DNA of 40,547 bases from Methanobacteriota archaeon (GTDB taxonomy: Archaea > Thermoplasmatota > Thermoplasmata > RBG-16-68-12). A program made the translations under genes and the position numbers. Shown in pieces: positions 28,344 through 30,107 of this stretch. The DNA lies in the NCBI GenBank assembly GCA_005878985.1, contig VBMA01000078.1, positions 1-40,547 of the forward strand, read 5' to 3'. The notes below the pieces were generated by a model. The model saw only the letters and a list, made by a program, of their open reading frames with translations. It was not told the DNA's origin and ran no database searches. Positions within the stretch are counted from its first letter, which is position 1. Each line of letters opens with the position of its first letter.

Positions 28344-28468
28344 TAGCCCCGGGCAGATTCGAACTGCCGTCGCGAGGTCTCTCCTCGGCGTCTTCGGCCG
28401 ATCCAGAGCCTCGAATCACTGGCCCGCGACCGCATCGCGGTCACGATTGGCCGCTAGACCACGGGGCT
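28344..28468 (-). tRNA. tRNA-Gln (CUG) containing two introns
   Basis: 125-nt gene: acceptor AGCCCCG/CGGGGCT, anticodon stem CGAGG/CCTCG, loop CTCTGG^A, T-arm GGCAG TTCGAAT CTGCC. Predicted introns 28419-28446 (D-loop, 28 nt) and 28379-28402 (37/38, 24 nt); mature RNA 73 nt. TATA-like CAATATAC about 28 bp upstream. Confidence 0.88.
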
Positions 28469-28508
28469 GCAATCGCGATTCAACGGAGAGGGCGTATATT
28501 GACTTTTC

Positions 28509-30107
28509 TTACTGGACCGCTTCGTTGAGTCGGCGCAAGACCCAGTCCTTCTCCAGCACGGCGAGGAACGGCGCGGCCCGAGGACCCATCTCCGACCCGA
28601 GCAAGATCAAGTAGAGGTCGCGGAAGAATCGGCCGGTCTCGACCGGGAGGCCCCCTTTCTTCGTGAGCACGACCATCGACTCTTTGATCGACTCCTCGTT
28701 CCAAGGAACGGCGGCGGCGCGGGTCGCATACAATCGCAACGCCGAACGATCGTCCGCATCGAGCTGCGACCTGACTTCGCGCGGCAGGGATTCAAGGAGC
28801 TTCACGCGATTCTCCGGTGCGTACTTCTCCACCCAGACGCGGGACTGTGTGAGGCGTCTCCCGATCCGCGCGCGCTCGCCTTCCGTCGGGACGCGGGTCA
28901 GCATCCCGGTGTCGCGCATCCGTTTCAGACACCACTCGAGCCGACCCGATTCAGGGCTGATTTGCGACAAGAACGCCGCATGACGGTACGAGAGTGCGAA
29001 GGGCTGCTCCTTCGGCACTGGCGCGAGGTACGCGAGCTCGTACGACCGAGCCTGGTCGTCCTCATCGCCTTCCCGGTCGGACGAATAGAACGCGTCTTCG
29101 GCGCGGTCGAAGGTATCGTGGTATGTGTCGACGCGATACAGGTCGAGGACCACGCGCCGCGCGATCGGATTGAAGGCGTAGATGTACCGCAAGACCTCGG
29201 CGTCTCCGACCTCCACCCATTGGGCTGGCGTGAAGCCGAGGAAGTCCGACGAGCCCATGTCGCCCAGATCTTTCCCGCGGTCGGCGATCCCGACCCATTC
29301 ATACGGAATGCCCATCGGGGGCCGGAAGTGCATGATCGTCTCTGCGATCTCCGCGCAGGAATCGCGCGAGCCACCCGGGGTTGCGTGGTCCTTCCCGAAC
29401 GGTTCGATGTCCACGCGGTAGACCTTCCAAAGGGCGGGCCACTCGAGCCGCCAGTTCAGTTTCCCTTTCTCGATCGAGGACTTGCCGCGATGCCCGCATC
29501 GCTCGCAGCGATAGGAGGCCGACATGCCATCAATCGCGGTCGTCGTCGCGCCGATCGTCCCGCATTTCTCGCAGAACGCCTCGAAGGGAATCCATCCTGC
29601 CGGGTACGGGTGGCGGGCCCGGTACTTGTTGACGACGGCGCGGACCTCTTCCGCCCGCGGGGCCAAATCGCGGACGAGCGCCTGCATCTCGGGATTGCGA
29701 TACGTGTCCGTGGTCGTCACGATCCGGACACCGGGCGCGAACCGGTCCAGCACCCCGCCGAAATCTTGCCAGAAGTGTTCGACCCAGTTCGCGTGGCAAC
29801 CGAGCGGATCCGGGACATCGATGAGCCGGCGGCCCGCGTACTTCCGCCCATCCTCCTTCGTGAATTGGGCCACCTGGGCTTCCTTCGCCTTCCATTCGTC
29901 CTGCGTGTAGAGGACCAAACTCTGGACCGCGTTCTGACCCAGGTCCCGAAAACTCCGGGTCAGGAGCTGGGAGAGCGTGATCTCGCCGCGGAGCCGCCCC
30001 ACATGTTGGAGTCCGCTGACGCTCAGGCCGGCATTGATGACGAGGTCCCGCTTCTCGCCGACATACGCCTTCGCGTCGACGAGGAGGTCATCGTACCAGT
30101 GCGTCAG
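28509..30107 (-). CDS. lysK: Lysyl-tRNA synthetase, class I
   Basis: LVINAGLSVSGLQHVGRLRGEITLSQ HIGH-like region, YEWVGIADRGKDLGDMGSSD, zinc ribbon FCEKCGTIG...YRCERCG. Start placed at CTG 30107; see finding. Confidence 0.9.
   Translation of the reverse strand: MTHWYDDLLVDAKAYVGEKRDLVINAGLSVSGLQHVGRLRGEITLSQLLTRSFRDLGQNAVQSLVLYTQDEWKAKEAQVAQFTKEDGRKYAGRRLIDVPDPLGCHANWVEHFWQDFGGVLDRFAPGVRIVTTTDTYRNPEMQALVRDLAPRAEEVRAVVNKYRARHPYPAGWIPFEAFCEKCGTIGATTTAIDGMSASYRCERCGHRGKSSIEKGKLNWRLEWPALWKVYRVDIEPFGKDHATPGGSRDSCAEIAETIMHFRPPMGIPYEWVGIADRGKDLGDMGSSDFLGFTPAQWVEVGDAEVLRYIYAFNPIARRVVLDLYRVDTYHDTFDRAEDAFYSSDREGDEDDQARSYELAYLAPVPKEQPFALSYRHAAFLSQISPESGRLEWCLKRMRDTGMLTRVPTEGERARIGRRLTQSRVWVEKYAPENRVKLLESLPREVRSQLDADDRSALRLYATRAAAVPWNEESIKESMVVLTKKGGLPVETGRFFRDLYLILLGSEMGPRAAPFLAVLEKDWVLRRLNEAVQ

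Follow-up and report, generated by a model that had tools for sequence, protein, structure and literature searches.

Short introns in the D-arm and T-arm of tRNA genes, several per gene and recently gained, are known from Thermoproteales, other Crenarchaeota and Nanoarchaeota, together with relaxed forms of the bulge-helix-bulge (BHB) splice motif named hBH, HBh' and BHL (bulge-helix-loop) (PMC4090602, PMC4033280, PMC8450103). The Crenarchaeota and Nanoarchaeota have (αβ)2 endonucleases, with the CSL loop in Crenarchaeota. Broad specificity has been tied to CSL or ASL (PMC6379350, PMC12397907), and reviews hold that euryarchaeal α4 and α2 endonucleases process canonical BHB motifs only, non-canonical introns having co-evolved with enzymes that bear a loop; the α2 and α4 enzymes are called strict (PMC4090602, PMC4033280). 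Korarchaeum cryptofilum was in 2014 the only archaeon described with an α2 EndA and non-canonical introns (PMC4033280), and its EndA carries a specific loop. The euryarchaeon Methanopyrus kandleri has multiple introns and no CSL or ASL; its (αβ)2 heterotetramer is credited with "constrained broad" specificity and was unable to process a mini-helix of the BHL type (PMC6379350). Archaeoglobus fulgidus, Thermoplasma and Ferroplasma encode loop-less α'2 enzymes in a single fused gene. Loop-less α'2 enzymes are as a rule considered narrow in specificity (PMC6379350, PMC4033280, PMC4090602): the Archaeoglobus and Thermoplasma enzymes are listed as such (PMC6379350), and the loop-less Archaeoglobus EndA is reported to be limited to canonical BHB (PMC12397907, PMC6379350, PMC4033280). 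Homodimeric enzymes are nevertheless stated to be able to cleave BHL-like motifs (PMC8707768).

The locus described here lies in a window of 40,547 nucleotides, the whole stretch of DNA that was analysed. The earlier note had taken the genome for euryarchaeal, and the source is indeed a member of the Thermoplasmatota from soil or the subsurface, perhaps of the order RBG-16-68-12. It shares with the Thermoproteales and their counterparts the short D-arm and T-arm introns, several to a gene, the recent gains and the relaxed motifs, whereas its EndA appears from its sequence to be a loop-less α'2 enzyme. Like K. cryptofilum it combines non-canonical introns with an α2-class EndA, but one that lacks a specific loop; like M. 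kandleri it has multiple introns and neither CSL nor ASL, but a putative α'2 enzyme in place of a heterotetramer. The domain layout of its EndA is that of Archaeoglobus, Thermoplasma and Ferroplasma, although the protein is longer (350 aa versus 288-305). Non-canonical tRNA introns are already known, and their pairing with a loop-less α'2 EndA in the Thermoplasmatota is the unusual part. No earlier report of such introns in this archaeal group was found in the open-access literature searched, which is not proof of absence.

Structure of the tRNA-Gln(CUG) gene

The tRNA-Gln(CUG) gene occupies positions 28344..28468 on the minus strand, where 125 nt with two introns encode a mature tRNA of 73 nt. 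From 28468 the minus strand reads AGCCCCGTGGTCTAGCGGCCAA / TCGTGACCGCGATGCGGTCGCGGGCCAG / TGATTCGAGGCTCTGG / ATCGGCCGAAGACGCCGAGGAGAG / ACCTCGCGACGGCAGTTCGAATCTGCCCGGGGCTA, with the second and fourth segments being introns. Exon 1 (28447..28468, 22 nt) comprises the 5' strands of the acceptor and D-stems and the D-loop up to A21. Intron 1 (28419..28446, 28 nt) interrupts the D-loop at the A21/U22 junction, with predicted cuts AA^T and AG^T. Exon 2 (28403..28418, 16 nt) holds the 3' strand of the D-stem, the 5' strand of the anticodon stem and the CUG anticodon, and ends at position 37, where intron 2 (28379..28402, 24 nt) is inserted at the canonical 37/38 site. Exon 3 (28344..28378, 35 nt) runs from position 38 through discriminator A73. 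The coordinates and sequence elements proposed in the earlier note proved correct to the base, and the joined exons come to 73 nt. At 28 and 24 nt, the introns are far shorter than the catalytic core (more than 200 nt) of a group I self-splicing intron.

Neither ARAGORN nor Rfam (at the gathering score) recognised the gene in the window, an expected outcome of its double interruption; tRNA annotation in these soil archaea can thus overlook genes. A TATA-like element, AATATAC (28494..28500, minus strand), lies about 26-32 nt 5' of the mature tRNA end and downstream of the stop codon of the upstream neighbour, a class I lysyl-tRNA synthetase (28509..30002, minus strand; Pfam PF01921, E 1.2e-68) that is outside the intron system. 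In the alignment of congeners its position is kept with or without intron 1, and it is a putative promoter. In the window ORFs of high GC3 that were examined, CAG codons number 102 and CAA codons 37. A further intact tRNA-Gln(CUG) gene, which in the earlier note would have spoken against this one, was not detected in the 91%-complete, 2.1-Mb assembly of 200 contigs, where the other Gln gene found is UUG only; at that completeness and contig number a second tRNA gene or a second EndA subunit could be missing.

Folded alone, intron 2 forms a complete, strict BHB (hBHBh', z -3.4) with a 4-bp central helix, two 3-nt bulges and the predicted cut between G37 and A38. The D-arm with intron 1, folded alone, adopts the structure.(((....((((...(((((((((...)))))))))))))...))). 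(z -2.7). This comprises a GGCC/GGCC central helix, a 3-nt bulge (AAT), a 9-bp inner stem closed by a GAT loop, and a 4/3 internal loop that sets off the three D-stem pairs G10-U25, U11-A24 and C12-G23. As the short D-stem acts as the outer helix, intron 1 belongs to the bulge-helix-loop class, a relaxed BHB with central helix, 3-nt bulge, internal loop and inner helix. The isolated folds thus bear out the canonical 37/38 BHB and the relaxed D-loop motif of the earlier note; the outer helix that it had failed to see at intron 1 is present as the 3-bp D-stem. For the whole 125-nt precursor, the minimum free energy structure has an alternative D-arm pairing about 1 kcal/mol below the centroid, which retains the GGCC/GGCC and 9-bp helices and lacks the D-stem pairs. 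Central-helix pairing by a (nearly) self-complementary exon sequence largely accounts for the GGCCA direct repeat that flanks the intron, so that a target-site duplication need not be invoked.

Empty sites and history of intron 1

We examined 18 further congeners and found tRNA-Gln(CUG) in 17 of them, which with the source genome (G000) gives 18 genomes for comparison. The 28-nt insert is present in 13 of the 18, the source genome included, and missing in five (G003, G004, G007, G009 and G011), which read uninterrupted GGCCAATGATTCGAGG. The junction at this empty site, GGCCAA|TGATTCG, is exactly the predicted splice point of intron 1, and the sequence is the exact product expected from cuts at AA^T and AG^T, a pattern that chance would hardly produce. 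Removal of intron 1 restores a normal tRNA, with a joined sequence equal to the intron-less gene of the five congeners; exon 1 is the same in these genomes except for variants at position 1, which were allowed in the match. The mature D-loop, which had been said to resemble that of ordinary archaeal tRNA-Gln, reads GGCCAATGAT and is identical to the intron-less sequence. One congener has two near-identical copies of the tRNA-Gln gene.

The search of related genomes that the earlier note had advised located the insert within this genus only: it is absent from all other genera and families in a sample of 300 genomes of the class. The tRNAs of Thermoproteales share similar intron sequences; here, by contrast, the Gln intron turned up in no other tRNA. 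A perfect-match search for the stem and GGCC pattern of intron 1 in 19 congeneric genomes returned nothing outside tRNA-Gln, and there is thus no sign of transposition to other tRNAs. In the EndA tree, a single clade of insert-bearing species was not rejected (AU p 0.56), the likelihood of the constrained tree being slightly above that of the free search. Most simply, intron 1 was gained within this genus of soil Thermoplasmatota, with one gain as the simplest reading, in a lineage that already had non-canonical introns.

The two introns differ in their number of changes. The first eight of the nine inner-stem pairs of intron 1 are invariant across the 13 species, and the sole variable pair stays paired through UG, CG, GC and GU; as the other eight never vary, covariation support for the stem comes from this one pair. 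Parsimony gives 11 changes for the 28 sites of intron 1, all of them at six positions (five in the loop and tip of the stem, one at the first base). Intron 2 of the same genes has 29 over its 24 sites, and its inner helix shows compensatory changes among congeners. Given the invariant stem and the freely changing 37/38 intron, a sequence-specific role of intron 1 is possible.

The splicing endonuclease

A single EndA ORF was found in the source genome, with both tRNA_int_endo domains (Pfam) in that ORF. The protein is 350 aa long from its likely start, carries the catalytic Tyr, His and Lys in its C-terminal unit, and is closest in sequence to the EndA of Methanopyrus (5x89, the best match) and of Archaeoglobus (1r0v/2gjw). 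Two fused units in one chain, with the predicted catalytic residues in the C-terminal one, characterise the α'2 type; the ε2 type of ARMAN has a three-unit protomer of about 395 aa, unlike the two units and 350 aa seen here. The lysine-bearing CSL loop would precede the strand that aligns with TLSLIE in the EndA of Archaeoglobus. At this site the protein reads FFGKIVGRRLQLSLLE, and the insertion is absent, as in all 26 genomes examined; in the same alignment an Archaeoglobus-CSL chimera and the Aeropyrum α subunit do show it. The ASL position was taken as analogous to that of CSL (PMC12397907) rather than from a residue-by-residue alignment with ARMAN-2, and by this measure ASL is absent too. 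The typing of EndA proposed as a check in the earlier note hence gives an α'2-type enzyme with neither CSL nor ASL. That note had also held that the genome needs an endonuclease of broad specificity, which remains a fair inference, but the known basis of such specificity, CSL or ASL, is missing from this enzyme. Most of 60 relatives have one full-length EndA gene each, fragments aside.

Taken together, we consider it very probable that the tRNA-Gln(CUG) gene is functional and that proteins splice both of its introns, which are of the EndA type, the first having been gained within the genus. In the precursor the 37/38 site would form a strict bulge-helix-bulge and the D-arm a relaxed bulge-helix-loop, where the self-complementary exon sequence G18-G19-C-C would pair with the GGCC at the 3' end of intron 1, the 9-bp hairpin of the intron serving as inner helix and the three D-stem pairs as outer helix. 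The single α'2-type EndA of the genome would make the cuts AA^T and AG^T and the usual tRNA ligase of archaea, of the RtcB type, would join the exons, after which the D-stem would form as in the intron-less sister species. Such a course would fit the view that homodimers cut BHL motifs (PMC8707768). The genus, with near-identical species that have or lack the D-loop intron, offers a natural test of the conflict in the literature on homodimer specificity, and the enzyme context, examined at the level of sequence, makes this intron worth assaying.

Other tRNA introns and alternative readings

Intron 1 is not isolated, as the same genome holds further D-loop and T-loop introns. Low-scoring tRNA matches in the source genome correspond to further multi-intron genes, namely Ile2, Leu(UAA), initiator Met and Lys(UUU). 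The tRNA-Lys(UUU) gene (L306; G000 C93:1575-1746, minus strand) is split by three introns (D-loop, 37/38 and T-loop 59/60). Almost every congener in which the gene is full-length shows this structure, as do other families of the order. Its D-arm folds with a CTAGG/CCTAG central helix, a 3-nt bulge, a 5-bp inner helix and the D-stem as outer helix. T-loop introns, which were sought by pattern search, were located at position 59/60 in three loci on plus strands (C133:1446-1561, L104/L140; C167:6962-7087, L105/L170; and C149 near 57197, L299; all G000), which comprise tRNA-Ile2(CAU), tRNA-Leu(UAA) and initiator tRNA-Met. The Ile2 and Leu(UAA) introns have empty sites in other families, and the initiator gene has a 37/38 intron as well. 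In these 59/60 introns the T-stem is the outer helix. In the source genus TTCA and GGAA form the central helix, with an A-G mismatch, but in family f2 it is TTCG/CGAA; a strict BHB, in which TTCG pairs with CGAA across the T-loop, occurs at this site in some relatives. D-loop introns built on GGNC/GGNC occur in tRNA-Leu genes of family f2 and, by pattern, of f13 and f17, found with a search pattern that itself demanded a repeated GGNCAA. In all D-loop cases (Gln, Lys and Leu) the central helix comes from an exon sequence of full or near-full self-complementarity. The tRNA-Leu genes with D-loop introns from other Thermoplasmata families are L201, L202 and L203 (family f2), L200 and L204; judged by eye, L201-L203 also have 37/38 and 59/60 introns, giving three introns each.

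These introns bear on whether the insert is removed at all. A mature tRNA that keeps it as an extended D-arm hairpin, or a pseudogene disrupted by insertion, would agree with the silence of ARAGORN and Rfam and with the stability of the D-arm hairpin in folding. We regard it as improbable, since the exons match between filled and empty congeners, including G18G19 and their T-loop tertiary partners, the gene is intact in 13 species with no other CUG gene detected in the source genome, the BHL geometry yields the precise empty-site sequence (joined GGCCAATGATTCG), and a like geometry recurs in the D-loop introns of tRNA-Lys and tRNA-Leu. An artefact of metagenome assembly or binning might be suspected from the fragmented source genome (200 contigs), in which the tRNA-Tyr gene looks damaged. 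The insert, however, is found in 13 genomes assembled separately from different soil samples, varies mainly at its hairpin tip and lies below a conserved TATA-like element, and we give this explanation next to no weight.

A subtler alternative accepts both introns and has intron 1 cut by some other nuclease or by a second EndA subunit that escaped detection. It draws on the wide description of loop-less α'2 enzymes as strict (PMC4090602, PMC6379350) and is somewhat less implausible than a retained insert, yet still unlikely: both domains lie in one ORF of the one EndA gene here, most of the 60 relatives have one full-length gene, and homodimers are stated to be capable of cleaving BHL-like motifs (PMC8707768). 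Moreover, several of the 59/60 introns fold as full or near-full BHB, so that intron position alone need not call for a new enzyme. We therefore retain splicing by the single EndA, and lean slightly towards a wider reading in which loop-less α'2 EndA would remove relaxed introns across the whole Thermoplasmatota order, so that CSL and ASL would not be required. Under the same reading D-loop introns would have arisen repeatedly, as a self-complementary exon (GGCC, or CTAGG with CCTAG) readily gives the central helix.

A candidate T-stem intron in tRNA-Tyr (G000 C35:21038-21173, plus strand; L107/L249) was dropped, as relatives show the 37/38 intron alone. The source-genome copy has that usual intron too, but its 3' end is altered in this genome alone, some 12 additional bases preceding the acceptor strand; an error of assembly or a scar left by integration may account for this. 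Finally, a low-scoring match (L100; G000 C36:1399-1464, minus strand) looks like the 3' half of a tRNA, with an anticodon arm resembling that of Arg(CCG). A normal tRNA-Arg(CCG) gene lies some 1 kb away, and L100 may be a remnant or a heavily interrupted gene.
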